Below, one piece after another: positions 1-29,889 of a stretch of DNA of 32,142 nucleotides. Position 1 is the first letter of the stretch. Each line of letters opens with the position of its first letter. The notes beneath the pieces are model-generated. The model saw nothing but the letters and a program-made list of their open reading frames with translations. It made no database searches and had not been told where the DNA came from. The DNA comes from Gemmatimonadota bacterium (GTDB lineage Bacteria > Gemmatimonadota > Gemmatimonadetes > Longimicrobiales > Gaopeijiaceae), in the NCBI GenBank assembly GCA_009840215.1, contig VXOC01000261.1, forward strand, positions 1 to 32,142, read 5' to 3'. A program made the translations under genes and the position numbers.

Positions 1-837
1 ATTCGCCGCCGCGGGGGCTGGCCGGGCGGGGGTGCGGGGCTGAGCCGGCGGGGTCTGCGCTTGCTGAGCCTGGGCGCGCGGCTCCTCTTCCTCCTCCTCC
101 TCTTCGGGCTCTTCCGCGGCGGCCCGCACACGCCGGCGCTGCTGCTGCTCGGCGCGCCACGCGGTGCTGATGGCCGGGTAGTCCTTGAGCGCGGTCGTCA
201 GCGCGGGGTCGGCTCCGGCCGCCAGGAGGGCGGCGAGGGCGGCGTCGGCTCCGCGGACGGACGCGAACATGAGGGGGGTGCGTTCGGAGAAGGTGTCGCG
301 GGCGTCGACCTCGGCGCCGTGTGCGGCGAGGAGGGCCACGACCTCGGGCGCATCGGCGTCGGCTGCGAAGTGCATGGCCGAAACGCCGGTGGAGGTGTAG
401 ACGTTCGGGTCCGCCCCCGCCTCGAGGATCTGTTTCGCCACCTCGGGGCTGCCGGCGCGGCTGGCCAGGTGCAGCGGCGTGTACCCGCCCAGACGTGTGG
501 TCGCGCGCACGGTCGCGCCGGCGTAGAGGAGCGCACGGGCGATCTCGGCGTCGTTGCGGCTGGCGGCCCAGTGGAGCGCGGTCATGCCGTCGCTCTGGGC
601 CGTGTTGACGTCGGCTCCGTTCCTGAGAAGAGCGCGCACCGCCTCCAGGTCGCCCCGTTCGGCCGCGTCGGCTACCGGAGAATCGGCCGGCCCGCTGGCA
701 CCGAGGACGGCGAACGCCAGCACGAGCGCCGACAGCCTGGCGGTCCAGGGCCGCTTCAGCCCCCGGCCGACAGATTCCGTGACAGATTCATGCCGGAATC
801 TGTCCGCTGGGCCCTTGCCAGTGCGTTGAGTGGTCAT
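1..837 (-). CDS. Exported ankyrin-repeat protein (partial, C-terminus off left edge)
   Basis: The minus strand is open from an ATG at 837-835 to the window edge (279 codons, no stop seen). An excellent AAGGAGG lies 6 bases upstream (850-844), which fixes the start. The protein has an unusually long N-terminal extension of about 28 residues, then a hydrophobic stretch (LSALVLAFAVLGASG) that looks like a signal peptide, then about five ankyrin repeats marked by ADVN, TALHWAA, TPLHLAS, AMHFAAD and TPLMFAS. The tail is acidic (a run of seven Glu) followed by an Ala/Pro/Gln-rich segment of low complexity. Ankyrin repeats bind other proteins, and here the site would be periplasmic or extracellular. 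It is the third gene of an operon with the DUF1592 and DUF1552 genes, 131 bases after the latter, so a shared process is likely. Bases encoding the N-terminal extension contain a palindromic repeat (769-804). The specific partner is unknown. Confidence 0.85.
   Translation of the reverse strand, partial: MTTQRTGKGPADRFRHESVTESVGRGLKRPWTARLSALVLAFAVLGASGPADSPVADAAERGDLEAVRALLRNGADVNTAQSDGMTALHWAASRNDAEIARALLYAGATVRATTRLGGYTPLHLASRAGSPEVAKQILEAGADPNVYTSTGVSAMHFAADADAPEVVALLAAHGAEVDARDTFSERTPLMFASVRGADAALAALLAAGADPALTTALKDYPAISTAWRAEQQQRRRVRAAAEEPEEEEEEEEPRAQAQQAQTPPAQPRTPARPAPAAAN
769..804. repeat. Three-half-site palindromic element, copy 1 (inside ankyrin gene)
   Basis: Two direct copies of gacagattc (769-777 and 781-789) are followed after a 6-base loop by the inverted copy gaatctgtc (796-804), giving a perfect 9-bp stem. 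The element lies within the coding sequence just after the ankyrin start codon and encodes part of the N-terminal extension before the signal peptide. Its architecture matches copy 2 at 854-889. Confidence 0.8.
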
Positions 838-843
838 CTTCAG

Positions 844-850
844 CCTCCTT
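844..850 (-). promoter_or_regulatory. Ribosome binding site of the ankyrin gene
   Basis: On the minus strand AAGGAGG sits 6 bases before the ATG at 837. It is a near-perfect Shine-Dalgarno sequence. It shows that the long N-terminal extension, including the palindromic repeat, is really translated, and it lies between the two repeat copies. Confidence 0.8.
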
Positions 851-853
851 GGT

Positions 854-889
854 GACGGATTCCTGCCAGATTCTACCGGGAATCTGGCA
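854..889. repeat. Three-half-site palindromic element, copy 2 (upstream of ankyrin gene)
   Basis: gacggattc (854-862), then gccagattc (865-873), a 6-base loop (taccgg) and the inverted gaatctggc (880-888). With the flanking t864 and a889 the stem is 10 bp and perfect. The order of half-sites and the 6-base loop match copy 1, which starts 85 bases away. It lies between the DUF1552 stop and the ankyrin ribosome binding site, so on the transcript it precedes the binding site. Confidence 0.8.
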
Positions 890-968
890 CGAGCGCGTTT
901 TGGTGTTGCCGGTGGCCCGTCGTAGGCGACCCCGACATTTCCGAGTGGCGATGGCATCCCGGACGGTC

Positions 969-2357
969 TCAGATGTCGAATCGTCCCGTGCTGTCCCCGA
1001 ACTTCTCGATGTCCTCCGCGCCGAACTTGTGAAGCAGGCTCAGCATGACGTTCGCCATGGGCGTCCCGGGCTGGGCGCGGATGTGCTGCTCGCCCTCCAG
1101 GATGCCGCCCGCGCCCCCGACCAGGAAGAGCGGGCAGCGGATGTGGTTGTGCAGGTTGCTGTCGCCCATCGCGGAACCGTACATGAGCATGGTCTTGTCG
1201 AGGAGCGTTCCGTCGCCCTCGGTCGATTCCTGCAGCTTCTCGAGGAAGTAGGGGATCAGGGAAATGTGGTACTCGTTGATCCGCCCGAACTGCTCGACCC
1301 TCTCCGGCCGGCCGCCGTGGTGCGAGGCCGCGTGGAAGGGCGTCTCCACACCCGATTCGGGGTAGACGCGGGGAGACGCGTCGCGGCCCAGCTTGAGCGA
1401 GAAGACCCGGGTCGTGTCCGACTGGAATGCGAGCACCTGCAGGTCGAACATGAGCTTGACGTGATCCGCGAAGGAGTCGGGCACGCCGACCGGCGCCTCG
1501 GGGATCTGGCGCTCCTCGCCGCTGATGTTCTGCGCCTCGATGCGCTGGATGCGCTGTTCGAGTTCGCGGATGTTCTGCGCGTACTGGTCAAGGCGCTGCA
1601 CGTCCGCGGGATCCAGTTGCCGCCTCATGGACGACATCTCGCCCATGACCCAGTCCAGGATGCTGCGGTTGGTGGTCAGGCGCTCGGCGCGCTGCTCGGC
1701 GGTGCCGCCCGCCCCGAAGAGCTGCTCGAAGACGGCGCGCGGATCCCGGATCATGGGGAGCGGCTGGGTGGGTGTGGCCCAGCTGATCGTGTCGGTGTAG
1801 ACGCAGGCGTAGCCGTAGGCGCACCCGCCCGCCTGGTCCACATTCTCGATCGAGAGCTGCAGCGACGGTATCGGCGTGTCCTGGCCGAAGCGCTGCACGA
1901 AGAGCTGGTCGAAGGAGGTCCCCACGCGCACGTCCGACCCCTGCGTCTGCTTCGGGCGCGCCTGGGTGAGGAAGACCGCGCTCGTGCGGAAGTGGTCCCC
2001 CCCGATCTCGGCGGGCGCGTAGGCGTCGGCCATGCGCGAGTCGGTGTCGCTGACGATGGTCAGGTACTTCCGGAAGGGCTCGAGCGGCTTGAGGTTGCTG
2101 GGCGACAGGTCGAAGTTCTTCCCCGTCTCGGCAGGGGACCAGAGATTCTGGCTCGCGCCCCAGTCGTTGCACCCCGCGGCCCCGTGCACCTGCTCGATGC
2201 AGACGAGGCGGGTGCGGTCGGCGGCCTTGCCCGCCGCGGTGGACGCCCACAGGCGGCCCGCGGGGATCATGGCGTCGAGGAGGGGCAGGCTGATGGCGGC
2301 TCCGGCTCCCTTGAGCATGGTCCGCCGCGAGATGTGCTTGCCGCTGAGGTATTTCAT
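969..2357 (-). CDS. DUF1552 domain protein with Tat signal
   Basis: 462 residues. The N-terminus has a twin-arginine signal (SRRTMLKGAGAAISLPLL, Arg-11/Arg-12), so the protein is probably exported folded through the Tat system. The rest matches the DUF1552 family: an EQVHGAAG segment after the signal, repeated GG.DHFR- and GTSFDQL-type motifs, an HHGG motif near the middle and a C-terminal segment with GS.MGDSN..H. The biochemical function of DUF1552 is not established; the fold resembles sulfatase/DUF1501-like proteins by family lore, which I cannot test here. The gene follows the DUF1592-type gene by 50 bases on the same strand, the usual pairing for these families in planctomycete- and Gemmatimonadota-type genomes, and precedes the ankyrin gene. 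The start ATG at 2357 is chosen because it gives the complete Tat signal. Confidence 0.92.
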   Translation of the reverse strand: MKYLSGKHISRRTMLKGAGAAISLPLLDAMIPAGRLWASTAAGKAADRTRLVCIEQVHGAAGCNDWGASQNLWSPAETGKNFDLSPSNLKPLEPFRKYLTIVSDTDSRMADAYAPAEIGGDHFRTSAVFLTQARPKQTQGSDVRVGTSFDQLFVQRFGQDTPIPSLQLSIENVDQAGGCAYGYACVYTDTISWATPTQPLPMIRDPRAVFEQLFGAGGTAEQRAERLTTNRSILDWVMGEMSSMRRQLDPADVQRLDQYAQNIRELEQRIQRIEAQNISGEERQIPEAPVGVPDSFADHVKLMFDLQVLAFQSDTTRVFSLKLGRDASPRVYPESGVETPFHAASHHGGRPERVEQFGRINEYHISLIPYFLEKLQESTEGDGTLLDKTMLMYGSAMGDSNLHNHIRCPLFLVGGAGGILEGEQHIRAQPGTPMANVMLSLLHKFGAEDIEKFGDSTGRFDI

Positions 2358-2407
2358 TCGAATCAGTCCTCTTGGAGTGGGTGACTCGTGCTATTCATTG
2401 GACACCG

Positions 2408-4888
2408 TCAGTTGCCCCGCTGTTGGGGTTCGTGGCCGGGGTCGCCCTCCTCGGCCACGGGGGTGCCGGCCCGGGCCATCCGGAAGGCGTCGCTGCCCAC
2501 TACACCCAGCACGAAGGACGATATGCGATAGTCGTTCTTCGCGGCCTGGCGGGTGATGGCACGGACGGTGGGCTGATCGTAGTACTCGACCCGGCGGCCG
2601 AGCGCGAAGGCCATGAGGTTTTCGGTGAAGGTCCGCAGCACGACCTCGGGGATGTCGAGGAGCGCGTCGCGGAGGTCTCCCGGGCCGGTGAGCTCCCGGC
2701 CGTTGTACATCTCGCCGACCGGATCGACCGGGTTGCCCTCGTCGCGGATGCGCCAGACGCCGGTCACGTCGAAGTTCTCGAGCGCCAGCCCCAGGGGGTC
2801 CATCACGATGTGGCAGGAGCGGCACTGCGGGTTGTTGCTGTGCTCCTCCAGACGCTCGCGCACGGTCAGGAAGCGCCCCTCCTCGGCGGCCGCGGTTTCC
2901 TCGAAGGCGGGGATGTCGGGGGGCGGGGGAGGTGGCGGCGTGCCGAGCAGCACTTCGAGGACCCACTTGCCGCGCAGCACCGGCGAGGTGCGGTCGGGGT
3001 GTGAGGTCAGGGTGAGGATGCTGCCGTGCCCGAGCAGGCCGCGGCGATGCTCGGTGGGGTAGGTGACCCTCTTGAAATCAGGTCCGGTGACGCCGGTGAT
3101 GCCGTAGTGCCGCGCCAGACGCTCGTTGGCGAAGGTGTAGTCGGCGGTGAGCATCTCCAGTACGGAGCGGTCCTCCTCCACCAGGTGGTGGAAGAAGAGT
3201 TCCGTCTCGCGGTGCATCGCGTCGGCCAGGGTCTGGTCGAAGTAGGGGTAGGTGAGCGCGTCGGGGTGGATCTTCTCCAGATCCTGCAGGCGCAGCCACT
3301 GCGCGGCGAAGCGGGTGGCGAGGGCCTCGGCGCGCGGGTCGCCCAGGAGCCGGCGGGCCTGGCGTTCGAGCTCGGCGGGGTCGGAGAGGGCCCCGGACCG
3401 GCCCAGCTGCTGGAGTTCGCCGTCGGGGGGCGCGCCCCAGAGGAAGAAGGAGAGCCGGGACGCGAGGTCCGGTCCGGCGATCTCGTAGATGCCGTCGGGT
3501 CCCGCGTCGGCCGGTGTCCGTTCGACGCGGAAGACGAAATGGGGGCTGGCCAGGATCGCCTGCAGGGCGGTGCGGATGCCCTTTTCGAAGCCGCCGTCCT
3601 CCGCACCCATCTCGTAGAAGGGGAGGAGGCCTTCGACGTCGCTCCCGGTGGCGGGGCGGCGGTAGGCGCGGGTGGCGACCCGTTCGATGATCTCGCGGGC
3701 GCAGGGCACGGCCTCCTCGGGGAGGGTGGGGCGGCAGGTGAAGACGGCACGCCGAGCGGGGGTGTCCGAGATGCCGGTCACATCGAAGGGGCCGAGCACG
3801 GTGAGCCGCTGCAGGTGCTGCTGGGTGGTGACGCCGTAGCCGATTCCCATCTGCCCGTCGGCGAGGGTGTGGTCGATGGGGCGGATCAGGTCGTCCACGA
3901 CCCCTTCGAACTGGCGGATGAAGGCCGCCGACACCCGCTTCTGCCCGGCCGTCACGTAGATCGAGTCGGTGCGGATGTTCAGCCCGGTCGGCTCCGATTC
4001 CGACATCCAGCGGTCCACGGTGAGGAGCGCCACGCGGGCACCGTCGATCGAGACCTCGATCTGCTCGGTCCCGAAGGTGCGGCCGAAGACCTCTCCCTCC
4101 ACCGCGTTGTACGGCATGATGTGGAAGACGTACTTGCCGTCCGCGGGGAAGTTGTGCATCACCGAGAGTCCGCCGCGCGTCCCGATCGGCGCCCCCTCCA
4201 CCTGCTCCTTCTGCGACTGCACCCGCGGAATGCGGTATTCGGTGGACGAGACCTCCGCCTCGGCGTCGCCCAGCGCCAGCCGGCTGATCTGGCCGGCGGC
4301 GCGCAGATACCCCTCCATCACCGTCGCCGAGGGCATCTGAACGTCGGCGATGTTGTCGAAGTTGGCGCTCTTGGTGTCGAGTGGGAGGAAGGTGGCGACA
4401 TCGATGTCGATTCCCAGCAAGTCCCTCACCGCGGCGGCGTACTCGGCCCGGTTGAGGCGCTGGAAGGTCCTCCGCCCCGGGTTCGGGTCGCTGGCCGCGA
4501 TCCGGTCCATGGTGGTCTCGAGTTCGGTGACCATCGCCGCGAGGTCCTCCGGCTCGGGGCGCGGCATCCCCGAGGGCGGCATCATGCCGGCGCGGAGTTT
4601 GCGGATCATCTTCTCGATCGTGGGGCGCCGCTGGGCCGCGTCGGCGATGTCGAAGCCCTCGAGGACGAGGTTCTGGATGCGGCGGCTCTCGTTGTGGCAG
4701 CGGACGCAGTATCGCGCGACGATCTCGTTGGGACCCGCGGCGGCCGGATTCTCCGTCGCAAACGACGCTTGTGCGGCCGTCCCGGGAACCGCAGCCGGAG
4801 GGACGGGGTATGAGACCGGGGTCTCCCGCCCGGCGATGCCGATACCGACCGCACCGGCCAGGAGGAGCGCAATGGCGTATCTGCTCAT
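2408..4888 (-). CDS. DUF1587/DUF1592/DUF1588/DUF1585-type cytochrome-like protein
   Basis: 826 residues from the ATG at 4888. The reading frame stays open far upstream, but only this start gives a hydrophobic export signal (residues 4-20) directly before the mature part. A CxxCH heme-c motif (CVRCH, Cys-61/Cys-64/His-65) opens the protein and a second one (CRSCH, Cys-689/Cys-692/His-693) lies in the C-terminal third. Between them are recognisable blocks of the multi-domain planctomycete-type family: FQRLNRAEYAAAVRDLLG (DUF1587), then the DUF1592/DUF1595 regions, YGITG (DUF1592 end), RRGLLGHGSILTLTSHP.RTSPVLRGKW (DUF1588) and the final DUF1585. The family is thought to be periplasmic or exported and redox active, with unproven substrate. 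It is the first gene of the minus-strand operon (then DUF1552, then ankyrin) and is divergent from the plug-like paralog array. The ribosome binding site is weak. Confidence 0.92.
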   Translation of the reverse strand: MSRYAIALLLAGAVGIGIAGRETPVSYPVPPAAVPGTAAQASFATENPAAAGPNEIVARYCVRCHNESRRIQNLVLEGFDIADAAQRRPTIEKMIRKLRAGMMPPSGMPRPEPEDLAAMVTELETTMDRIAASDPNPGRRTFQRLNRAEYAAAVRDLLGIDIDVATFLPLDTKSANFDNIADVQMPSATVMEGYLRAAGQISRLALGDAEAEVSSTEYRIPRVQSQKEQVEGAPIGTRGGLSVMHNFPADGKYVFHIMPYNAVEGEVFGRTFGTEQIEVSIDGARVALLTVDRWMSESEPTGLNIRTDSIYVTAGQKRVSAAFIRQFEGVVDDLIRPIDHTLADGQMGIGYGVTTQQHLQRLTVLGPFDVTGISDTPARRAVFTCRPTLPEEAVPCAREIIERVATRAYRRPATGSDVEGLLPFYEMGAEDGGFEKGIRTALQAILASPHFVFRVERTPADAGPDGIYEIAGPDLASRLSFFLWGAPPDGELQQLGRSGALSDPAELERQARRLLGDPRAEALATRFAAQWLRLQDLEKIHPDALTYPYFDQTLADAMHRETELFFHHLVEEDRSVLEMLTADYTFANERLARHYGITGVTGPDFKRVTYPTEHRRGLLGHGSILTLTSHPDRTSPVLRGKWVLEVLLGTPPPPPPPDIPAFEETAAAEEGRFLTVRERLEEHSNNPQCRSCHIVMDPLGLALENFDVTGVWRIRDEGNPVDPVGEMYNGRELTGPGDLRDALLDIPEVVLRTFTENLMAFALGRRVEYYDQPTVRAITRQAAKNDYRISSFVLGVVGSDAFRMARAGTPVAEEGDPGHEPQQRGN

Positions 4889-5017: not shown

Positions 5018-6007
5018 ATGCGACTCGCACCGTCTTTCGCTACTGCCGCGGCGGTCGTCTGCATGCAAATCGGTATCCCGGCACTCGCCGGGCCGCTCGC
5101 CGCGCAGGAGACCACCGGGGATGAGGATCCCGTTCGCCTGACCGTCCGTGTCACGGACCGCAGGAGCGAGGAGGGGTTGCTGGGCGCGGTGATCGAACTG
5201 TCCGGAGTGGTCGCCCGGTACGTGACCGGCGTGGACGGGCGTGCCGACGTGGAGGTCCCGCCCGGGCGTTATACGATCACGGTGCGCCGGAGCGGGTACG
5301 AGGTGCTGTCGGGAGACCTGGAGGTGTCCGAACCGGGCGATTTCACGCTTCCATTGGAACGCGTTCGGGCGATGGATCCCAATGCGACGGCCACGCTCGA
5401 GGTCAGGGTCGTGGACCACGAGTCCGGGGCCGGGATCGAAGGGGCGCGCGTATCGGTCCTGGAAGGTCCGAGCGGCACGGCCGACAGTTGGGGCTACGTC
5501 CAATTCAGCGGGCTGGACATGCTGGTCGCCGAAGTCTCGGTGGAGACGGGCGGCTATGCGAGGCGAACGGCGCCTGTCGCGCTGCATCCGTTCCGGACGG
5601 CAGCCGCGCGGTTCGCCATGACGCGCGCGGCGGACGGACCCGTACCGATCGAGGTCCGGGTGCGGACCCGCGCCATGGACGGGATCTACGCCGGTGCCGT
5701 GTGGCGGCGCGGGCGCCGGGTGGCGTCGCTCACCCGTAGAATGCTCGAGGAACTCGCCGCCGTCAGGGTCTCGGACGGGCTGGCGACCCTGGAGGGGTTC
5801 CGGGTGGGGCGCCCCGGCCCGGACACGGCGTATCTCGTGTCGCCCCGGCAATGCGTGCTCGGCGTGTACGTGGATGGCGTCAACAGGTGGCCGGACCGGA
5901 GGAACCGGGCCAATGTCGACGTTGTCCCGGTCAGCCAGGTGGAGAGGGTGGAGATTCACCTGTTCCGGCGGGGCTGCGGCACCGTCCTTATCTGGACACG
6001 GCGTTGA
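5018..6007 (+). CDS. Secreted CarboxypepD_reg x2 plus TonB-plug-like protein, paralog 1 of 5
   Basis: 329 residues from the ATG at 5018, chosen over earlier in-frame ATGs because AGGG lies 7 bases upstream and a clean signal peptide ending in LAAQ follows. Two carboxypeptidase-regulatory (Ig-like) domains come next: about residues 37-115 (RYVTG.DG, PPGRYTITV) and 126-205 (IEGARVSV, GYARRTAPVALH). The C-terminal about 120 residues resemble a TonB-receptor plug: LTRRML, then C279-VLGVYVDG and C320-GTVLIWTRR at the very end, where a normal receptor would continue into its barrel. The mature chain has only these two cysteines. It is the most divergent of the five: it lacks the PGVRV and ELAEVYWGL motifs seen in other copies and has RVEIHLFRRG instead. 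Function unknown; outer-membrane or periplasmic location inferred. Confidence 0.85.
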   Translation: MRLAPSFATAAAVVCMQIGIPALAGPLAAQETTGDEDPVRLTVRVTDRRSEEGLLGAVIELSGVVARYVTGVDGRADVEVPPGRYTITVRRSGYEVLSGDLEVSEPGDFTLPLERVRAMDPNATATLEVRVVDHESGAGIEGARVSVLEGPSGTADSWGYVQFSGLDMLVAEVSVETGGYARRTAPVALHPFRTAAARFAMTRAADGPVPIEVRVRTRAMDGIYAGAVWRRGRRVASLTRRMLEELAAVRVSDGLATLEGFRVGRPGPDTAYLVSPRQCVLGVYVDGVNRWPDRRNRANVDVVPVSQVERVEIHLFRRGCGTVLIWTRR

Positions 6008-6065
6008 AGACGCGCGCTATCTTGAGAGAATCGGCTTCCAGTCCCTTGCACCAGGAGATCGCGAC

Positions 6066-7118
6066 ATGATGAGCCCCCGGTGGGCCTCTTTCCCCGGCGG
6101 AAAACGACGGAGCCGGGCACGGGCCGCGGTGCCGGCGCTGGTCGCCATTCTCCCGCTCTGCATGCCGATGTCCGCACCACCGGCCGCTGCCCGGGAGATC
6201 GCACCCGACCAGGAACTCATTTCCCTGACCGCCCTGGTGCGCGATGTCTTCGACGACCGCGGATTGCAGGGAGCGGTGATCCAACTGGACGGCGTAGTGA
6301 CCCGCTACGTGACCGGCGAAGACGGACGCGCCGAGATGCAGCTCCCTGCGGGGACCTACCTGCTGACGGTGCGCAAGGGGGGATACGCGGAACTCGTCGG
6401 CGACCTGCAGGTCTTCGAGCCCGGCGAGTTCACGCTGGACATGGAGAGGGTACGCGATGTCGACATGCGCGTGCCGCCGAAGCTGCTGGTCCGAGTCGTG
6501 GACGGCCGGTCCGGGGAAGCGATCGAGGGAGTGCGGGTATCGCTAGAGGAAGGCGGGACCCGGATGACCGACCAGCAGGGCCGCACGGAGTTCACGGATC
6601 TCCAGCCGGGGGTCGCCCGGGTCGGCGTCGAGATGATCGGCTATGCGCAGCGGACGGAGCCGGTGGCGTTGCACCCGGACCGCACGACCTCGGTCGTGGT
6701 CGCGATGTCGCCCCGGGCGATCGAACTCGAACCCATTGTGGTCAACGTGCGTTCGCCCCGCCTGGAACGGTGGGGCGTCTACGATCGCCTGGACCGCGGC
6801 GAGCCCCGCCGGGTCCTCACCCGCCGCATGATCGACCAGCGCGCGGTGGGCAGGCTCTCGGACGCGTTTTATGCAGTGCCCGGTGTTCGGGTGAGACATC
6901 GTTCGATCAGCTCCACGCGGCTGGTGGCGCGCGCGAACTGTACCCTCAGCGTGTATGTGGACGGGTTTCGCTGGGGGACCAACATCGACGCCGTTCCCCC
7001 GGACTGGGTCGAGCTGGCCGAGGTCTATTGGGGATTGAGCACGCCGATCGAGTACACCGGGATGAGAGGGGGCGGCTGCGGCGCGGTGCTGATCTGGACC
7101 CGGCTCGGGGCGGCGTAG
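6066..7118 (+). CDS. Secreted CarboxypepD_reg x2 plus TonB-plug-like protein, paralog 2 of 5
   Basis: 350 residues. The start ATG at 6066 has AGGAG 8 bases upstream; the frame is open further upstream but that part overlaps the preceding paralog. After a basic n-region and hydrophobic core the signal peptide ends near PPAAA. Two carboxypeptidase-regulatory domains follow (RYVTGEDGRA, VRKGGY; then LLVRVVDGRSG, GYAQRTEP), and then a plug-like region: LEPIVVNVRS, GVYDRLDRG, VLTRRMI, LSDAFYAVPGVRV, C292-TLSVYVDG, ELAEVYWGLSTPIEY and C338-GAVLIWTR six residues from the end. Those two are the only cysteines in the mature chain. It lies 58 bases after paralog 1 and 51 before paralog 3, consistent with one transcript. 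Truncated-receptor or regulatory roles are possible but unproven. Confidence 0.87.
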   Translation: MMSPRWASFPGGKRRSRARAAVPALVAILPLCMPMSAPPAAAREIAPDQELISLTALVRDVFDDRGLQGAVIQLDGVVTRYVTGEDGRAEMQLPAGTYLLTVRKGGYAELVGDLQVFEPGEFTLDMERVRDVDMRVPPKLLVRVVDGRSGEAIEGVRVSLEEGGTRMTDQQGRTEFTDLQPGVARVGVEMIGYAQRTEPVALHPDRTTSVVVAMSPRAIELEPIVVNVRSPRLERWGVYDRLDRGEPRRVLTRRMIDQRAVGRLSDAFYAVPGVRVRHRSISSTRLVARANCTLSVYVDGFRWGTNIDAVPPDWVELAEVYWGLSTPIEYTGMRGGGCGAVLIWTRLGAA

Positions 7119-7169
7119 TCGCACACCGGGCCAGATGACGACACCGGCGGACCGGCGGCGGAGGCGGCG

Positions 7170-8255
7170 ATGAGTTCGTTTGGGTGCGCCGGGAGGGTCG
7201 GGATGGACAGTTGCCGACCGCTCGTGGCGGCGGTTTCGGCGTGCCTGGGCCTCGGTTCATTGGTGTTCGCCTTCGACCTGGCCGGCCAGGAGCCCGATCA
7301 GGAACCGGAGGTTGTCCGCATTACCGCACATGTTCGCGACGCGGACACGGACGGGGTGCTTCTCGGCGCGTTGATCGAGTTGTCGGGCCACGCTCGGAGG
7401 TACGTCACCGGCATGAACGGGCAGGCCTCCTTCGACATCCCGGTGGGCGACTATACCTTCACCGTGCACAAGGGCGGATACGCAACGGTGCTGGGCGGTT
7501 TCCGGGCGGTGTACAACGGCGACCTCACCGTCACGATGCATGAGCTGGGCGACGTCGACACAAGCATCTCCGAGCGGCTCCTGGTGCGGGTCGCGGAGTT
7601 CGGATCGGGGCGGCTGATCGAAGGAGCGGCCGTCTCGCTCACCGGAGGCCGGGCGCGGATGACGGACGGCGAGGGGTGGGTCGAGTTCACCAACCTGAGC
7701 GGGACGGCCGCCGAGGTCACCATAAGGAGCTTCGGCTACCTCGCGCGCACCCAGGCCATCCCGCTGCTCGAGGGGCGCACGACGGTCGTGGAGGTGGCGA
7801 TGGCGATCGACGCGGTGGTCCTCGCACCCCTCGAAGTGACCGCCGAGTCCCGGTTTTTGGAGCAACAGGGCGTCTACTGGCGGATCGACCGCGGCTGGCC
7901 CAGGAAGCTCCTGACCCGAAAGGAACTCATGGAGAAGTCCGTTCCGCGCCTGGCGGATGCATTCCGCGACCTCCCGGGGGTGCGGGTGGACTACTGGGGG
8001 CCGTTCGCCTTCCTCAAGACGCACACCGGATGTCCGATCCCCGTGTTCCTTGATGGGCGGCAGCTGGGGTCCAACATCACGGCGTTGAATTTCGCCGTGG
8101 GACTGAACATTGACGATATTGAGGCGGAGGAGGTGGAACTGGCCGAGTACTATGAGCCGGGCCGGGTGCCGGCGCGATTCGTGAAGCCGTCGGTGGACAA
8201 CTGCGGCGCCGTCCTGCTCTGGTCACGGGAGCGGGCCGGGAAGGGGGAGGGATGA
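7170..8255 (+). CDS. Secreted CarboxypepD_reg x2 plus TonB-plug-like protein, paralog 3 of 5
   Basis: 361 residues from ATG 7170 (GGAGG 5 bases upstream). An internal ATG at 7203 also has a good site (GGGAGG, 6 bases), so the true N-terminus is uncertain by 11 residues. The signal peptide ends near LAGQ. The domain order is the same as its neighbours: first regulatory domain (RRYVTGMNGQ, HKGGYATV), second (LLVRVAEFGSG, IEGAAVSL, FGYLARTQ), then plug-like (LAPLEVTAESRFL, GVYWRIDRG, LLTRKEL, LADAFRDLPGVRV, C288-PIPVFLDG, EEVELAEYYEPG, C345-GAVLLWSR). The stretch HELGDVDTSI through RLIEGAAV is almost identical to paralog 5, pointing to recent duplication or gene conversion between non-adjacent copies. 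The plug segment is about 11 residues longer between the cysteines than in paralogs 2 and 4. Confidence 0.87.
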   Translation: MSSFGCAGRVGMDSCRPLVAAVSACLGLGSLVFAFDLAGQEPDQEPEVVRITAHVRDADTDGVLLGALIELSGHARRYVTGMNGQASFDIPVGDYTFTVHKGGYATVLGGFRAVYNGDLTVTMHELGDVDTSISERLLVRVAEFGSGRLIEGAAVSLTGGRARMTDGEGWVEFTNLSGTAAEVTIRSFGYLARTQAIPLLEGRTTVVEVAMAIDAVVLAPLEVTAESRFLEQQGVYWRIDRGWPRKLLTRKELMEKSVPRLADAFRDLPGVRVDYWGPFAFLKTHTGCPIPVFLDGRQLGSNITALNFAVGLNIDDIEAEEVELAEYYEPGRVPARFVKPSVDNCGAVLLWSRERAGKGEG

Positions 8256-8307
8256 GCGCATGTATCACGAGCCGGGTGACCGCACCCGGAACAGGAGGTC
8301 GAAAACG

Positions 8308-9372
8308 ATGAGTCGCCAGACAGCACGATGGGAGGACGGGCGGGCCCCGAACGGTGGACGGACCATCCTCCTCTGGGTCGTCACTTCCCTGTCCGCCGGC
8401 TGGTTCGTACCCGAGCCGTCTCTGCGCGCCCAGGAACCTGGCCAGGAAGTGACGACGGTGCGCGTCACCTTGCAGTTGCGCGACGCGGAGGGCCAGGCAC
8501 CGCTGATGGGCGCTCTGGTCCGGGTGCCCGGCCAAGCCAGACCCTACATCACCGGTGTCGACGGGCAGGTCTCCTTCGACGTGCCGGTTGGGAACTGGGT
8601 CATCACGGTACGGAAGGGCGGATACACGACGCTGACCCACGAACTCGAGGTCGCGCAGCCGGAAGAGGTCACGCTCCAGCTCAAGAGGTTGGAGGAGGTG
8701 GAAGCCGGCCTCCCCGCGACGCTGCTGGTGCGGGTCCGGGAAGCGGAGTCGGGGCGGGCGATCGAGGGGGCGGCGGTCTCGCTGGTGGGAGGCGAGACCC
8801 GATTGACGGGCCGGAGCGGGAACGTCCAGTTCACGACCCTGTCCGGCGAGGCGCGGCTCAACGCGGAGATGATCGGCTATGCGGATCGGACCGAACCGAT
8901 CACCGTGCACTCGGACGGATTGACCGTCGTCGACCTGGTCATGGCGGTGGACGCGGTGGTCCTCCCGCCCATCGAGGTCCAGGTGCGCTCACAGTTCCTG
9001 CTGGCCAACGGCGTGTACCGGAGGATCGACAGCGGACAGGTGATGCGGCTGCTCACGAGAGAGGACCTCGAGAAGTTCCCCGTGAGCTTCCTGTCGGACG
9101 CGTTTTCAAATGTTCCGGGCGTGCGCGTGGACCGGCAGACCCTGGGCGACACCAAGCTCATGGGACCGGGCAGGGGGAACCCCGACGGTTGCGAGTTGAC
9201 CGTCTACGTGGACGGATTGCCCACGGAAATGAACATCGACGCCTTCTCGCCGGAGATGGTGGAGCTGGCCGAGGTCTACTGGGGGCTGCGCACCCCCATA
9301 CAGTACCGCGGTGTGAACGCGAGTAACTGTGGCGTCGTGTTGCTCTGGACGCGGCGGGGAGGCGGGGAGTAG
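8308..9372 (+). CDS. Secreted CarboxypepD_reg x2 plus TonB-plug-like protein, paralog 4 of 5
   Basis: 354 residues from ATG 8308, preferred over the upstream in-frame ATG at 8260 because AGGAGG (8293-8298) sits 9 bases before it. The signal peptide has a hydrophobic core ILLWVVTSLSAGWFV and ends near LRAQ. Two carboxypeptidase-regulatory domains (PYITGVDGQ, VRKGGYTTL; LLVRVREAESG, IEGAAVSL, GYADRTEP) are followed by the plug-like region: LPPIEVQVRS, GVYRRIDSG, LLTREDL, LSDAFSNVPGVRV, C295-ELTVYVDG, ELAEVYWGLRTPIQY and C341-GVVLLWTRRG at the end. Only these two cysteines occur. It resembles paralog 2 most in the plug part. The preceding gene ends 52 bases upstream. Confidence 0.88.
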   Translation: MSRQTARWEDGRAPNGGRTILLWVVTSLSAGWFVPEPSLRAQEPGQEVTTVRVTLQLRDAEGQAPLMGALVRVPGQARPYITGVDGQVSFDVPVGNWVITVRKGGYTTLTHELEVAQPEEVTLQLKRLEEVEAGLPATLLVRVREAESGRAIEGAAVSLVGGETRLTGRSGNVQFTTLSGEARLNAEMIGYADRTEPITVHSDGLTVVDLVMAVDAVVLPPIEVQVRSQFLLANGVYRRIDSGQVMRLLTREDLEKFPVSFLSDAFSNVPGVRVDRQTLGDTKLMGPGRGNPDGCELTVYVDGLPTEMNIDAFSPEMVELAEVYWGLRTPIQYRGVNASNCGVVLLWTRRGGGE

Positions 9373-9415
9373 GGTTTCGAGCCGGCCATTCGTACAGGGA
9401 GAAGGGAGACCGTCG

Positions 9416-10498
9416 ATGGTGACATGCGGCTCGGTGCGGGTCCGGGGATCGCGCCGCCGGGTGCGTTGCCCCGGTGCCGTGCCTGCGCTCATGGCCATGC
9501 TGTCCCTCTGCGCGTCACCGGGCGGTGTGGTGCGGGCCCAGGAACCGGAACGGCAGGCGGAGACGTTCGACGTGACCGTGCAGGTGCGCGACGCGGAGAG
9601 CGACGCCCCGTTGCTTGGAGCGCTGATCGAGCTGTCCGGCGTGTCCAGACGCCACGTCACGGGGGTGAGAGGAGAGGTCACCCTGGAGATCCCGGCGGGG
9701 TACTACACCTTTACCGCGCAAAAGGGCGGTTATGCGACGCTGCGAGGTGACTTCGGCGTGATCGGCCCGAGCGAGCTCACGGTCGTGATGCATGAACTGG
9801 GCGACGTCGATACGAGCATTCCCGGAAGGCTGCTGGTGCGGGTGGCCGAGTTCGGATCGGGGCGCCTGATCGAAGGGGCGGCGGTTGCGCTTTCCGAGAG
9901 GCAGGGGGGGCTCACCGACGGGAGCGGATGGGTCGAGTTCAGCGATGTGGACGGGCCGGTGGCCGAAGTCACCGTTGAGATGCTGGGCTACCGGAAGCGG
10001 ACCGAACCGGTAACGCTGCACGAGGGACGAACGACGGTTGTCGAAGTGGCGATGTCGATCGACGCCGTGGTGCTCGCGCCCCTCGAGGTGGAGGTGCGTT
10101 CAGGGTTCCTGGAGGCGCACGGCGTGTACTGGAGGATGGATCACGGTCATGCCATGCACGTCTTCGACAGCGAGGATCTCATCGAGCGCGGCGGCGTCCC
10201 CTACCTCACGCAGGCTTTCACAAGGATCCCGAATCTCCACGTGTTAGGCGATAGCATCCTCGGGCGTCGCCGATGCCGGATCGCAGTATACTGGGACGGA
10301 GTACCCACGGAATTTGGTGATCAGATCGTGAGACCCATCCCGGGGGGCCTGGACTTTCTCGCGCCGGAGGAGATCGAACTGGTCGAGATCTATACGGGCC
10401 TGCGGACGCCCTTGCGCTTCAGCCGGTGGCCGGGGGACAGCAACGACTGCGGCGCCATCGCCGTCTGGTCGAAGCGCCGCGCGGACCGGAGCCGTTAG
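9416..10498 (+). CDS. Secreted CarboxypepD_reg x2 plus TonB-plug-like protein, paralog 5 of 5
   Basis: 360 residues from ATG 9416 (GGGAG 7 bases upstream), 43 bases after paralog 4. The signal peptide ends near VRAQ. The regulatory domains are well conserved and nearly identical to paralog 3 over HELGDVDTSI to RLIEGAAV. The plug-like region has drifted: LTRE is replaced by FDSEDL, the PGVRV motif by IPNLHV, and ELAEVYWGL by ELVEIYTGL. The two cysteines (C287-RIAVYWDG and C345-GAIAVW) are kept and are the only ones in the mature chain. Retention of both cysteines despite drift suggests a structural disulfide. It is the last copy of the array; the next gene is a peroxiredoxin about 70 bases downstream. 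Confidence 0.86.
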   Translation: MVTCGSVRVRGSRRRVRCPGAVPALMAMLSLCASPGGVVRAQEPERQAETFDVTVQVRDAESDAPLLGALIELSGVSRRHVTGVRGEVTLEIPAGYYTFTAQKGGYATLRGDFGVIGPSELTVVMHELGDVDTSIPGRLLVRVAEFGSGRLIEGAAVALSERQGGLTDGSGWVEFSDVDGPVAEVTVEMLGYRKRTEPVTLHEGRTTVVEVAMSIDAVVLAPLEVEVRSGFLEAHGVYWRMDHGHAMHVFDSEDLIERGGVPYLTQAFTRIPNLHVLGDSILGRRRCRIAVYWDGVPTEFGDQIVRPIPGGLDFLAPEEIELVEIYTGLRTPLRFSRWPGDSNDCGAIAVWSKRRADRSR

Positions 10499-10560
10499 TT
10501 TTCGGGGGATCCAACGACCACGGCGACGACGCCGGCACATTCCCAAACACGCAACACAAT

Positions 10561-10565
10561 GGAGG
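10561..10565 (+). promoter_or_regulatory. Ribosome binding site deciding the peroxiredoxin start
   Basis: GGAGG lies 5 bases before a TTG codon at 10571. The only nearby in-frame ATG (10559) overlaps this GGAGG and has no binding site of its own, so TTG is the likelier initiator. Confidence 0.6.
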
Positions 10566-10570
10566 CAGCC

Positions 10571-11044
10571 TTGAGCGGGCTCGAAGCAGGAACCAACGCG
10601 CCGGATTTTTCCCTTCCGCGGGTGCTGGGCGAAGACCCGGTCACACTGTCCGAACACCGGGGTGAGCCGGTGGTGCTGATGTTCGTGCCGCTGGCGTTCA
10701 GCGGCGTCTGTACGAAGGAGTTCTGCCATGTGGCGGAGAACTGGGAGGTGTGGGGCGCGATGGGGGCGAAGGTCTACGGGATCAGCATCGACTCGCCGTT
10801 CGTCAACGTGAAGTGGGCGGAGGACATGGGGGTGCCGTTCCCGATCCTCTCCGACTTCAACAAGACGGCGGCGGCCGCGTACGGCGTGCTGCGCGAGGAG
10901 ATCGCGGGGTTGCGCGGCGTCGCCAACCGCTCGGTGTTCGTCGTGGACGCGGGCGGGCGAATCCGGTATGCGTGGGTGAGCAAGGACCCGCACGTGCTGC
11001 CTCCCTTCGACGAAGTCGTGAGTGCGGTGCGCGCGTTGTCGTAG
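10571..11044 (+). CDS. Peroxiredoxin (AhpC/TSA family, AhpE/Bcp-like)
   Basis: 157 residues if started at TTG 10571 (161 from ATG 10559). This is a thioredoxin-fold thiol peroxidase that reduces hydroperoxides. The conserved start APDFSLP is followed by the active-site block PLAFSGVCTKE, where Cys-47 is the peroxidatic cysteine (P-x3-S-x2-C, with Ser in place of the more usual Thr). A second cysteine, Cys-52, lies five residues on, as in Bcp-type atypical two-cysteine enzymes. GISIDSPF, PFPILSDF and the Arg in NRSVFVVD are also typical. There is no signal peptide, so it acts in the cytoplasm. It follows the plug-like array on the same strand and may be the last gene of that transcript, although its product acts in a different compartment. 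The gene end converges on the release-factor-like gene. Confidence 0.93.
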   Translation: MSGLEAGTNAPDFSLPRVLGEDPVTLSEHRGEPVVLMFVPLAFSGVCTKEFCHVAENWEVWGAMGAKVYGISIDSPFVNVKWAEDMGVPFPILSDFNKTAAAAYGVLREEIAGLRGVANRSVFVVDAGGRIRYAWVSKDPHVLPPFDEVVSAVRALS

Positions 11045-19996: not shown

Positions 19997-20033
19997 GTCA
20001 ACCACGCTTTCCATTTTGTCAACCACGGTTGAC
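19997..20033. promoter_or_regulatory. Operator-like palindrome with an extra half-site
   Basis: gtcaacc-ac-ggttgac (20018-20033) is a palindrome with 7-bp arms. A further direct copy of gtcaaccacg begins at 19997, exactly 21 bases (two helical turns) upstream. The site is in the gap between the RND permease and the gamma-glutamyltransferase gene. The form resembles TetR-type operators, but no regulator gene is adjacent. Confidence 0.5.
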
Positions 20034-20038
20034 CTGTC

Positions 20039-20067
20039 TTGTGGACCGGCAACCCGGTGCACACTAT
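20039..20067 (+). promoter_or_regulatory. Possible sigma-70-type promoter of the GGT gene
   Basis: TTGTGG (20039-20044) and CACTAT (20062-20067) are 17 bases apart and lie 57 bases before the GGT start. Both boxes are weak matches. The palindrome at 20018-20033 would sit just upstream of the -35, a position typical of activator sites. Confidence 0.35.
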
Positions 20068-20123
20068 TGGGTCTGCTCAAGGCCACACTCCCACCGGGGA
20101 ACAAACGGAGATTGAAGAACCAG

Positions 20124-21848
20124 ATGAACCCGCGCCCATTCCCGCAATTCGTGCCACTCCTCGTGGCCCTGCTCGCCACCGCCTGCACCGCCCCCGCCGC
20201 CGAAACCCCCGAGATCACCGTCGCACAGGCCACCCTCGAGTCGGGCGGGGGAATGGTCGTCTCGGCCTACCCGCACGCCAGCCGGGCCGGGGCCGAGGTG
20301 CTGCGGGCCGGCGGCAACGCCGTCGACGCGGCGATCGCCACCGGATTCGCGCTGGCGGTCACGCACCCCGTGGCGGGCAACATCGGGGGCGGCGGCTTCA
20401 TGGTGATCCGCTTCCCGGACGGGTCCTCGACGGTCATGGACTTCCGGGAAAAGGCGCCGCTCAGGGCCCACCCCGAGATGTTCCTGGACGAGGACGGCGA
20501 GTACTCCTTCCAGATCCACCACCGCAGCCACCTGGCGGTGGGCGTCCCGGGCACGGTGGCGGGCTTCGCCCAGGCCCACGAGAAGTACGGCTCCGCGGCG
20601 TGGGCCGGCCTGGTCGAACCGGCGGTCGCCCTGGCGCGCGACGGCTTCGAGGTGAGCGAACGCCTGGCGGGCTCGCTGGCCGGACGGCTGGAGGCGTTCC
20701 GCGGCTACCCGGCCACCTTCGCCCAGTTCTTCCGCGACGGCGAGCCCTACGCCCCGGGCGACACCCTGGTGCAGGCCGACCTGGCGTCCACGCTGGCACG
20801 GATCCGCGACCAGGGACGCGACGGGTTCTACGCCGGCGAAACCGCACGCCTCCTCGCCGAGGAGATGGAGCGCGGCGGCGGCTGGATCACCGAGGAGGAC
20901 CTGGCCCGCTATCAGGCCGTGGAACGGGAGCCGGTGCGCGGCACCTACCGCGGGTACGACATCATCAGCATGGCGCCGCCGTCTTCCGGCGGGACGGCGC
21001 TGGTGGAGATGCTGAACGTACTGGAGGGCTTCGACGTGGCCGCGATGGGCGCGAACAGCCCCGCCCACGCACACCACCTCATCGAGGCCATGCGGCGCGC
21101 CTTCCGCGACCGCGCCACACACCTGGCCGATCCCGACTTCTCCGACGTGCCGGTCGCGCGGCTGACCAGCAAGGAGTACGCGGCCGAGATCCGGGCCACG
21201 ATTCAGGCCGATGCCGCGAGCGTGTCAGACCCGGACGACGTGGCGGGCGATCCCGGCTGGGAGAGCTCCGAGACCACGCACTATTCCGTGGTGGACGGCG
21301 ACGGAATGGCCGTTTCGGTCACCTACACCCTCGAAGGGGGGTACGGGTCGTACATCACCGTACCCGGCGCGGGCTTCCTGCTGAACAACGAGATGGGGGA
21401 CTTCAACGCGCGCCCCGGCCTCACCACCGACCGCGGCCTGATCGGCACCGAGCCGAACCTGGCGCGCCCCGAACAGCGCATGCTGTCGTCGATGACCCCC
21501 ACCATCCTGGCCCGCGGCGGTGAGCTGGTCGCTGTGGTCGGTAGCCCCGGGGGACGCACGATCATCAACACCGTGCTCCAGATCGTGGTGAACGTGGTCG
21601 ACTTCGGGATGTCCCCTGCCGACGCGGTGGCAACGAAACGGCTGCATCACCAGTGGCTCCCCGATGCGGCCCGGCTCGAGGACGGCTACATGAGCGAGGA
21701 GGACGCGGCCGTGCTCACTGCGATGGGGCACCCGATCTCGTGGAGCGGCCGCCAGGGGATTGCGCACTGCATCTTCACGGGGGAGGGCGGGGTGCTGGTG
21801 GGAGTTCCCGACCCTCGGGACTCGGACGGGACGGCGGCGGGGTACTGA
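20124..21848 (+). CDS. ggt: Gamma-glutamyltransferase (lipoprotein)
   Basis: 574 residues from ATG 20124; the frame is open upstream but only this start gives a clean signal peptide, ending in LLATAC (Cys-21), a probable though slightly atypical lipobox. The enzyme cleaves or transfers the gamma-glutamyl group of glutathione and related compounds, normally in the periplasm, after self-cleavage into two subunits. The catalytic nucleophile is Thr-384 in TTHYSVVDGDGMAVSVTYTL, very like E. coli Ggt Thr-391. MDFREKAP carries the substrate-binding Arg, NNEMGDF and GSPGGRTIINTVLQ match the small-subunit active-site loops, and GGNAVDAAIATGFALAV is the usual large-subunit start. All key residues are present, so an active enzyme is likely. 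It follows the RND operon by 138 bases and may have its own promoter. Confidence 0.95.
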   Translation: MNPRPFPQFVPLLVALLATACTAPAAETPEITVAQATLESGGGMVVSAYPHASRAGAEVLRAGGNAVDAAIATGFALAVTHPVAGNIGGGGFMVIRFPDGSSTVMDFREKAPLRAHPEMFLDEDGEYSFQIHHRSHLAVGVPGTVAGFAQAHEKYGSAAWAGLVEPAVALARDGFEVSERLAGSLAGRLEAFRGYPATFAQFFRDGEPYAPGDTLVQADLASTLARIRDQGRDGFYAGETARLLAEEMERGGGWITEEDLARYQAVEREPVRGTYRGYDIISMAPPSSGGTALVEMLNVLEGFDVAAMGANSPAHAHHLIEAMRRAFRDRATHLADPDFSDVPVARLTSKEYAAEIRATIQADAASVSDPDDVAGDPGWESSETTHYSVVDGDGMAVSVTYTLEGGYGSYITVPGAGFLLNNEMGDFNARPGLTTDRGLIGTEPNLARPEQRMLSSMTPTILARGGELVAVVGSPGGRTIINTVLQIVVNVVDFGMSPADAVATKRLHHQWLPDAARLEDGYMSEEDAAVLTAMGHPISWSGRQGIAHCIFTGEGGVLVGVPDPRDSDGTAAGY

Positions 21849-24515: not shown

Positions 24516-24899
24516 ATGGCCGAGATGCCGCCGCTCAGCCGGCGAGAGCGACAGGTCATGGACATCATCCACGAACTGGGTGGAGCGACCGCGGTACAGA
24601 TCCGCGAGCGCATGTCCGATCCGCCCACGGACTCCGCCGTGCGGTCGGTGCTGCGGATTCTTGTCCGGAAGGGCCACCTGGCGAAGGAGTACGACGCTCC
24701 CCGTTACGTCTACACGCCTCGCATTCCGGCAGGCGCGGCCCGGCGCAGCGCGATGAGGCATGTCCTCAAGACCTTCTTTGGAGGCTCGGTGGAGGGAGCC
24801 GTTGCCACGCTCATTACACTGGAGGACGGCCCGCTCGACGATGACGAGCGTGAACGCATCATGAGGATGATCGCAGAGGCCTCGGAGGAAGGACGATGA
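24516..24899 (+). CDS. BlaI/MecI/CopY-family transcriptional repressor
   Basis: 127 residues from ATG 24516, preferred over ATG 24459 because a GAGGGAAGAG purine tract precedes it and the length then matches the family (about 125); the upstream start would lie almost on top of the promoter. It has a winged-helix DNA-binding domain: LSRRERQVMDIIHELGGATAVQIRERM with the recognition helix near DSAVRSVLRILVRKGHL and the wing YVYTPRI. The C-terminal helical dimerisation region includes HVLKTFFGGSVEGAVATLI and DDDERERIMRMI. BlaI proteins dimerise on promoters and are inactivated when a partner M56 sensor is triggered. The stop overlaps the M56 start (ATGA), so the two are co-produced. The regulon is unknown; nothing nearby is a beta-lactamase. 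Confidence 0.94.
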   Translation: MAEMPPLSRRERQVMDIIHELGGATAVQIRERMSDPPTDSAVRSVLRILVRKGHLAKEYDAPRYVYTPRIPAGAARRSAMRHVLKTFFGGSVEGAVATLITLEDGPLDDDERERIMRMIAEASEEGR

Positions 24900-28035: not shown

Positions 28036-29889
28036 ATGCCCGGCAAATCAACCGTTTCCCGTCTCCTCCTCCTCGGCGCCCTCGCTGCCGCCTTCACCCC
28101 CCCGGCAACCGCCCAGCGCACCCAGAAACCCGTCCTGCACGGCAAGGACTGGATGGCGATCACCGGCAAACCCCTCGGCGCCACCGCCGGCGCCATGATG
28201 TTTCTCAAGGGCGGCAACGCCGTCGACGCCGCGGCCGCCATGCTCGGCGCCACCGCCACCATGTGGGACGTGCTCGGCTGGGGCGGCGAGACCCAGGCGC
28301 TCATCTACAACCCCGAGACCGGCGAGGTGATCGGGATCAACGCGCTGGGGGTCGCACCCACCGGTGCCACGCCGGAGTTCTTCCACGAACGGGACATGGA
28401 CATCCCGCCCGCGTACGGCCCACTCGCCGCGGTCACCCCCGGCACTCCCGGCGGCCTCATGGTGATGGTGGCCGAGTATGGCCGCCTCAGCCTGGCCGAA
28501 GTCCTGGCCCCCTCGATCGACATGGCGCGCGGCTACCCCATCGAGGCGCAGGCAGCCGACGCCCTCGAGCGCGAGAAGGAGCGCCTGGCGGGGTGGCCGT
28601 ACTCCAAGGAGATCTTCCTGCCCCACTTCGGCGAAGAACGCGCCGCCCCCGCCCCCGGCGAGATCTTCGTCCAGGAGGACCTCGCGCGCACCCTCGAAAA
28701 GCTCGTCGAGGCCGAGGCCGAGGCGCTCGCGGCCGGTGCCTCGCGCAGGGAGGCCATCATGGCCGCCTACGACCGCTTCTACCGCGGCGACATCGCCGAG
28801 GAGTTCGTGCGCGGCTCGCAGGAGCAGGGCGGTCTCCACACCATGGAGGACCTGGACAGCTGGCAGGTCTACCTGGAGGAACCCGTCACCACCTCGTACA
28901 AGGGCATCGACGTCTACAAGCTGACCACCTGGGTCCAGGGCCCCGTCCTCCTCCAGGCGCTGAACATCCTCGAAGGGCTGGACGTGGCCGCGATGGGCTA
29001 CAACTCCACCCGCTACATCCACGCCGTCTACCAGGCCATGAACCTGGCCTTCGCCGACCGCGACTTCTACTACGGCGACCCCTACTACCCACCCGAGGAG
29101 CCGATCGCCGGGCTGCTCTCGAAGGACTACGCCGCCGCGCGCGCCGCCGAAATCGACTGGGAGCGGAACAACCCGGATGTCCTCCCCGGCGACCCCTATC
29201 CCTTCCAGAACGGCACCAACCCCTTCCTGCACCTGATCGAAACGTGGAACGCGGAGCCGGTCGCGACCCCCGAGTCGGCGGGAATGAGCTCCGAAGAAGC
29301 CTTCTACGCCGGCACAACCTCGATCCAGGCGGCCGACGCCGACGGCTGGGTGGTGTCTATCACCCCGTCCGGTGGCTGGATTCCGGCGGTCATCGCGGGC
29401 AGGACCGGGATCGGCATGAGCCAGCGCATGCAGAGCTTCGTCCTCGACGAGCGCGCGGGTCCGTACAATGTGGTCGAGCCCGGCAAGCGCCCCCGCGCCA
29501 CACTCACCCCCTCGCTCGCCCTCAAGGACGGCCGGCCCTTCCTCTCCTTCGCGGTGCAGGGGGGTGACGGGCAGGACCAGAACCTGCTCCAGTTCTTCCT
29601 GAACATGGTCGAGTTCGACATGAACGTTCAGCAGGCGGCCGAGGCGGCCAACTTCAACAGCTACCAGATGCGCAGCTCCTTCGGCGCGCACGAATCGCAG
29701 CCGGGACGCCTCCTTCTCAACGACGGGGTCTCCGCCTGGGTCCGCGCCGAACTCCGGGAGATGGGGTACGACCTCACCTTCTCCGCGCGCACCTCCGGTC
29801 CCATCAACGCGATCTTCTTCGACGCCGCGACCGGCACGATGTGGGGCGGTTCCAGCAACCACGGCGAGGACTACGGCATCGCATGGTGA
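28036..29889 (+). CDS. Divergent gamma-glutamyltransferase-family protein (Ntn hydrolase)
   Basis: 617 residues with a Sec signal peptide ending in ATAQ, so exported but without a lipobox. It keeps the GGT fold markers GGNAVDAAAAMLGATA near the start, AVTPGTPGGL, and a self-cleavage site with a likely nucleophile Thr-427 in GTTSIQAADADGWVVSITPSG. It lacks key substrate residues of true GGT: the DFRE.AP motif is replaced by INALGVAP, TTHYS by TTSIQ, and the GSPGG loop by QGGDGQ. It therefore belongs to the broader GGT-like family, with probably a different amide or acyl substrate. It shares low overall similarity with the ggt gene at 20124. The stop overlaps the start of the alpha/beta hydrolase by 7 bases, so the two are probably co-translated. 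Confidence 0.9.
   Translation: MPGKSTVSRLLLLGALAAAFTPPATAQRTQKPVLHGKDWMAITGKPLGATAGAMMFLKGGNAVDAAAAMLGATATMWDVLGWGGETQALIYNPETGEVIGINALGVAPTGATPEFFHERDMDIPPAYGPLAAVTPGTPGGLMVMVAEYGRLSLAEVLAPSIDMARGYPIEAQAADALEREKERLAGWPYSKEIFLPHFGEERAAPAPGEIFVQEDLARTLEKLVEAEAEALAAGASRREAIMAAYDRFYRGDIAEEFVRGSQEQGGLHTMEDLDSWQVYLEEPVTTSYKGIDVYKLTTWVQGPVLLQALNILEGLDVAAMGYNSTRYIHAVYQAMNLAFADRDFYYGDPYYPPEEPIAGLLSKDYAAARAAEIDWERNNPDVLPGDPYPFQNGTNPFLHLIETWNAEPVATPESAGMSSEEAFYAGTTSIQAADADGWVVSITPSGGWIPAVIAGRTGIGMSQRMQSFVLDERAGPYNVVEPGKRPRATLTPSLALKDGRPFLSFAVQGGDGQDQNLLQFFLNMVEFDMNVQQAAEAANFNSYQMRSSFGAHESQPGRLLLNDGVSAWVRAELREMGYDLTFSARTSGPINAIFFDAATGTMWGGSSNHGEDYGIAW

Follow-up and report, generated by a model that had tools for sequence, protein, structure and literature searches.

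We examined a 32,142-nucleotide stretch of a Gemmatimonadota bacterium genome of 4.1 Mb (GCA_009840215.1; positions 1 to 32,142 of contig VXOC01000261.1, our C55; hereafter the window), focusing on an array of five consecutive forward-strand genes whose exported products resemble the beginning of a TonB-dependent receptor and lack its beta-barrel. The genes (gene 1, 5018..6007; gene 2, 6066..7118; gene 3, 7170..8255; gene 4, 8308..9372; gene 5, 9416..10498) are intact, encode products of 329-361 aa and are separated by 58, 51, 52, and 43 nt. All five proteins start with a hydrophobic stretch that closes with an A-x-A/QE-like site, as read from the sequence, which we take as a signal peptide, and continue with two stretches matching CarboxypepD_reg (PF13620) and a plug segment (5627-6001, 6714-7103, 7806-8228, 8965-9354, and 10049-10474 in genes 1 to 5, respectively). 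Pfam and the alignment of the five proteins agree in this with the first-pass annotation, made from the sequence alone, which had described tandem secreted genes 43-58 bases apart with two CarboxypepD_reg domains and a plug each.

The relation of the C-terminal region to the Plug domain was borne out by profile searches. PF07715 scores above the gathering score in gene 2 (28.2 bits) and gene 4 (32.1 bits), is borderline in gene 1 (23.4 bits, or 24.8 bits in the genome search, against a cut-off of 23.9) and falls below the cut-off in genes 3 and 5 (13.3 and 15.5 bits). The five-way alignment and the profile match to solved receptors assign genes 3 and 5 to this domain as well. When PDB sequences were searched with a profile made from 30 plug segments of barrel-less copies, TonB-dependent receptors were recovered, namely CirA (3e-7) and BtuB (5e-6). 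Modeled alone with AlphaFold2, the 130-residue plug of gene 4 is predicted to be compact (pLDDT 91.7, pTM 0.84), and 50 of the 50 Foldseek matches listed for this model are TonB-dependent receptors (TM ~0.5-0.65), with the dextran utilisome SusC (8aa4) in first place. The full-length AlphaFold2 model of gene 4 consists of two seven-strand sandwiches and the plug; among the transthyretin-like domains that the sandwiches match is the crystal structure of the SusC N-terminal extension (NTE; 9hfj). The order of CarboxypepD_reg before plug is that of the SusC N-terminus, as initially proposed. None of the five proteins reaches the full-length match to TIGR04056 (SusC/RagA; 368 bits), and gene 4 alone matches this model, with 21.7 bits in the NTE region. 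Overall, the identity of the array products as exported, barrel-less TonB-receptor plugs is well supported. For the idea that they might be subunits of an adhesive polymer, also raised at first pass, the sole point in favor is that the CarboxypepD_reg sandwiches have a pilin-like fold of a generic kind.

The array genes end where the barrel would begin. Their stop codons lie 1, 4, 8, 5, and 7 residues (genes 1-5) past a CG.xxxW[ST][RK] strand that aligns with the GVIxIxTK strand of true receptors, which confirms the early termination noticed in the sequence. As the first-pass annotation had also stated, no barrel follows any copy: PF00593 has no match on the contig, so the array is not one receptor broken by sequencing errors, and an assembly artefact is excluded because three further genomes, including one assembled into a single contig, have orthologous arrays. 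Such a split receptor is ruled out, in addition, by the intactness of orthologous arrays elsewhere. In the whole genome, PF00593 has 26 matches. None is on this contig, each lies in a frame of 700 aa or longer, and just three of them (C164 twice, C5) come without a Pfam plug match. Family members at other loci also end at the plug or add something other than a barrel; in barrel-less copies the stop falls 0-42 residues after the plug.

The defining feature of the family is an invariant cysteine pair that is absent from barrel-bearing plugs. One cysteine stands a few residues before a [YFV]xDG turn and the other opens the closing strand (CGxxxxW). Both are present in the alignment of all five window genes; in gene 4 they are Cys295 (9190..9192), which precedes VYVDG, and Cys341 (9328..9330), in CGVVLLWTR. 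The second cysteine had previously been listed only as part of an end motif, CG.VLLWTR. The motif is real, but the distinguishing trait is the pair. In a systematic comparison, all complete barrel-less plugs have the pair and 0/10 plugs with a barrel do, and the phylum survey shows it in 66/66 complete barrel-less copies, a count that includes two copies (L158.02 and L159.04) that were missed by the cysteine regular expression and have both cysteines on reading. A bias to be noted is that the segments behind family profile A2 had been chosen by a cysteine-requiring pattern; among copies picked by the score of profile A1 alone, the C-terminally complete ones all show the pair, the exceptions being truncated or frameshifted. 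The two residues are usually the sole cysteines of the mature protein, and exactly two cysteines follow residue 45 in 43 of 57 proteins. A VKOR gene adjoins a DsbA-like gene in this genome (C165), so oxidation is available, and the two invariant cysteines are predicted to form a disulfide.

Such a bond would bear on whether these plugs can act as gates. The isolated plug of FepA behaves as unfolded, according to a review, and engineered intraplug disulfides block FepA transport (PMC11658791); therefore, a plug pinned by its cysteines should be stable on its own but gate poorly. The proposal that the proteins gate true receptors is weakened by the same transport result and by the large frames in which every detectable barrel of the genome lies. 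We consider it very unlikely that they act in trans, closing or completing barrels that have no plug of their own or replacing receptor plugs. The plug fold is retained, and FhuA has reportedly been rebuilt in E. coli from separately expressed plug and barrel, but 26/26 barrels lie in long frames, only three of them lack a recognizable plug, and a plug locked by its cysteines would be ill suited to gating.

The family extends well beyond this genome. At a threshold of E <= 1e-9, matches were found in 310 of the 395 Gemmatimonadota genomes sampled and in 103 of 138 genera, often with at least ten copies per genome. The family profile gives barrel-bearing plugs much lower scores. A single scan of named-genome contigs returned ten plug-bearing loci, nine titled Gemmatimonadetes/Gemmatimonadota or a member of the group and one titled "uncultured bacterium," plus one Flavobacteriales match limited to the sandwich. 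This agrees with the phylum named at first pass. Phylum-wide, the plug is the last or nearly the last domain, preceded by one or, often, two CarboxypepD_reg sandwiches. Some forms depart from this layout. About nine of the 66 copies have a C-terminal membrane helix, and three carry TonB_C after the plug (31.8-40.5 bits; Pfam cut-off 24.6). These natural fusions are encoded on the reverse strand of their loci (L153, 5607-6359; L160, 5498-6604; L165, 5640-6830), with no membrane helix between the two domains. The genome of the window itself has nine matches to the TonB C-terminal profile PF03544. Other variants place Sel1 repeats ahead of the plug, or a long CarboxypepD_reg chain and a stretch that by eye appears LolA-like. 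The latter (L060, at G000:C172; L068, L069, L158, and L162) are exported proteins of ~800-1000 aa in which CarboxypepD_reg domains flank a middle part resembling a LolA-type half-barrel and a cysteine-pair plug forms the C-terminus.

The array itself has a long history at a fixed position. Its left border is a divergent gene (2408..4888, reverse strand) for a DUF1587/1592/1588/1585/1595 (PSD/PSCyt) protein, likewise placed in five other genomes (G001, G007, G018, G021, and G181) and accompanied by a DUF1552 protein; its right border is an AhpC/TSA peroxiredoxin gene (10559..11044, forward strand) 60 nt downstream of gene 5. Between the two, G001 and G181 (the latter from a different genus) have one copy, and G007, G018, and G021 have about five to seven, some of them broken. 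In the phylogenetic tree, read without a G018 fusion that is in the wrong frame, each array type clusters with its sister-species counterparts (support 97-100 / 92-100): gene 1 with orthologues in G007 and G021 (100/100), gene 2 in G007 (100/99), gene 3 in G021, G007, and G018 (97/92), gene 4 in three species (98/100), and gene 5 in G007, G018, and G021 (99/97). Recent amplification by unequal crossing-over was considered as the main story and rejected, given that paralogues group by type rather than by species and that G001 and G181 have single copies at the same locus. The earlier suggestion of a locally amplified stand-alone plug is therefore correct in that the module is multiplied at one locus; it is not a local invention, and the orthologous types show the amplification to be old. 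Frameshifted array copies in sister species (L065, 7705-8805; L066, 7365-8513; L067, 7537-8532) indicate that copies are also lost.

Orthologue comparisons gave ratios of nonsynonymous to synonymous substitution rates (dN/dS) of 0.18-0.38. Selection on the plug was not seen to be stronger than on the sandwiches (0.22 vs. 0.21-0.29). Between paralogues, the plug loops are only 16-22% identical, whereas identity is 44-59% in the sandwiches and in the VYVDG strand. In receptors, the apical plug loops are the part that contacts the substrate. Given the single copies at the same locus, the type-wise orthologues in sister species and the low dN/dS, the array is an ancient set that has been maintained, and its copies diverge at the sites by which the plug of a receptor would contact substrate. 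These data leave next to no credence for receptor remnants that have lost their barrels and are decaying in place. The frameshifts in some sister-genome copies fit decay, but purifying selection, a cysteine pair not found in receptors, the presence of the family in most genera sampled, and a uniform end point do not. The segment joining the second CarboxypepD_reg domain to the plug is also maintained. In gene 4 this linker (residues 214-243; 8947..9036, forward strand) is modeled with low confidence near residues 218-225 but shows 86% identity between orthologues, and it is conserved as strongly as the folded core. It contains the motif L-x-P-[IL]-x-V (L-x-P-I-x-V in gene 4), a putative TonB box on sequence grounds, whose P and V do not vary among 14 full-length copies.

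Several other genes lie near the array or its counterparts. The left part of the window (1-4888) encodes Ankyrin, DUF1552, and DUF1592-type secreted proteins of planctomycete kind, which are kept beside the array locus in several species. Past the peroxiredoxin gene, other species have a further barrel-less CarboxypepD_reg and plug protein (L066, 13500-14312; L067, 13682-14404; L071, 8988-9761; L129, 6833-7603). It scores 31.4 bits in L066, has another cysteine pattern and a P[IL][IV]C ending, and is absent from this window.

The divergence of the plug loops raises the possibility of soluble or surface ligand-binding proteins, in which the loops would bind a small molecule, metal chelate or glycan, the sandwiches would be spacers, and paralogues would differ in ligand. 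That these loops are the most divergent and length-variable parts of the paralogues is consistent with such a role, as are the SusC neighbors of several family loci and the retained binding of ferric enterobactin, at 5 uM, by the FepA plug on its own (PMC11658791). On the other hand, the conserved residues are structural only and none is of ligand type, no outer-surface sorting or anchoring signal is present, and the forms with an inner-membrane-like C-terminal helix or TonB_C point to the periplasm. Ligand binding is thus conceivable but, in our view, unlikely.

The plug has been put to a second, different use outside barrels. Two M56/BlaR1-type peptidases of this genome end in repeated half-plugs (PF07715, 57.1 and 40.4 bits; L169, 754-2457, at G000:C238, and L170, 139-1683, at G000:C228); these half-plugs have no cysteine pair, and one of the two genes adjoins a BlaI-like repressor gene. 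By analogy, the free plugs could be sensor domains of periplasmic proteins that feed inner-membrane signaling. This analogy, together with the membrane-helix versions of the cysteine-pair family, speaks for a sensor. However, the M56 half-plugs form a separate subfamily without the pair, and most cysteine-pair copies are soluble and have no recurrent regulator neighbor, so that we regard a sensor role as improbable. Separately, the window contains a BlaI-like repressor gene followed by a gene for a 949-aa M56 peptidase without a plug (24558-27745), adjoining a gamma-glutamyltranspeptidase gene (28036-29889); a second gamma-glutamyltranspeptidase gene is located at 20016-21848.

The function that we infer for the five proteins, and tentatively favor for the family, is that of periplasmic adaptors or regulators linked to TonB and SusCD, that is, free disulfide-pinned plugs rather than gates. 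With somewhat greater reserve, we suggest that in Gemmatimonadota the plug turned into a free, disulfide-locked periplasmic module, a pore-less TonB-linked class for adaptation or signaling that diversified into soluble, membrane-anchored, and TonB_C-fused forms. The periplasmic side is suggested because forms with a C-terminal membrane helix exist, and the link to TonB because TonB_C follows the plug in three family members. A disulfide from the cysteine before the VYVDG strand to the one before the closing strand would make the plug self-supporting in the periplasm and hard for TonB to pull apart; the plug of a true receptor, by contrast, sits and is remodeled inside its barrel. C-terminal domains of TonB type could nevertheless bind the exposed linker, and a partner or ligand may be held by the plug's variable loops. 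An old duplication series in this genus produced five copies differing mostly in these loops, a divergence that suggests different partners.

Genomic company is compatible with this adaptor reading. In this genome (C155) and in congeners, a short form of the family comes after a SusC-SusD pair, and SusC occurs in 10 of 40 fetched family windows where 1.3 would be expected, although SusC may be undercounted: if its density were threefold and the independent groups numbered seven, significance would be lost (P 0.09). The enrichment is therefore suggestive only. No fixed operon partner was found across the phylum, SusC/SusD being the sole widely recurring neighbor. Further points weigh against adaptors: the TonB-box-like linker is weakly defined and TonB binding is putative, TonB_C is present in just 3/66 copies, and the window array adjoins no receptor or TonB gene, its conserved neighbors being the DUF1592 protein and the peroxiredoxin.

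In the current understanding, the plug is a gate and has meaning only within its barrel. Natural, selected and phylum-wide free plugs with a cysteine pair of their own offer a test bed for the plug fold, the NTE domain, and the TonB box acting alone. Public records presumably name the array genes "TonB-dependent receptor plug domain-containing protein" or "carboxypeptidase regulatory-like domain-containing protein," both of them domain names. Many such genes in Gemmatimonadota genomes could be mistaken for damaged or incomplete receptors and so raise receptor counts. Consistent with the first-pass remark that no function had been described, our literature search, which lacked most subscription journals, found no paper describing a barrel-less plug family.

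Among known systems, the nearest protein is SusC. The array proteins share with SusC/RagA (TIGR04056; Bt1763 and the dextran SusC) the CarboxypepD_reg NTE, a TonB-box-like linker and the plug, in the same order; the plug model is closest to SusC 8aa4 and the NTE-like sandwiches match 9hfj. The function of the NTE in SusC is itself unknown (PMC7782687). Unlike SusC/RagA, they have no beta-barrel, carry the cysteine pair, end in WTR rather than xTK, and often have two NTE-like domains. With a PF07715 plug and no 22-strand C-terminal beta-barrel, they fall outside the definition of a TonB-dependent receptor at its main feature. They resemble the isolated plugs of FepA and also FhuA made in the laboratory in having a plug without a barrel, but those are artificial and the FepA one behaves as unfolded (PMC11658791), whereas the array plugs occur in nature, are conserved, and should by prediction fold without a partner. 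The M56/BlaR1-type peptidases likewise carry a plug-derived domain outside a barrel, probably in the periplasm, and differ in having only the second plug half, repeated, fused to a peptidase and without the cysteine pair.

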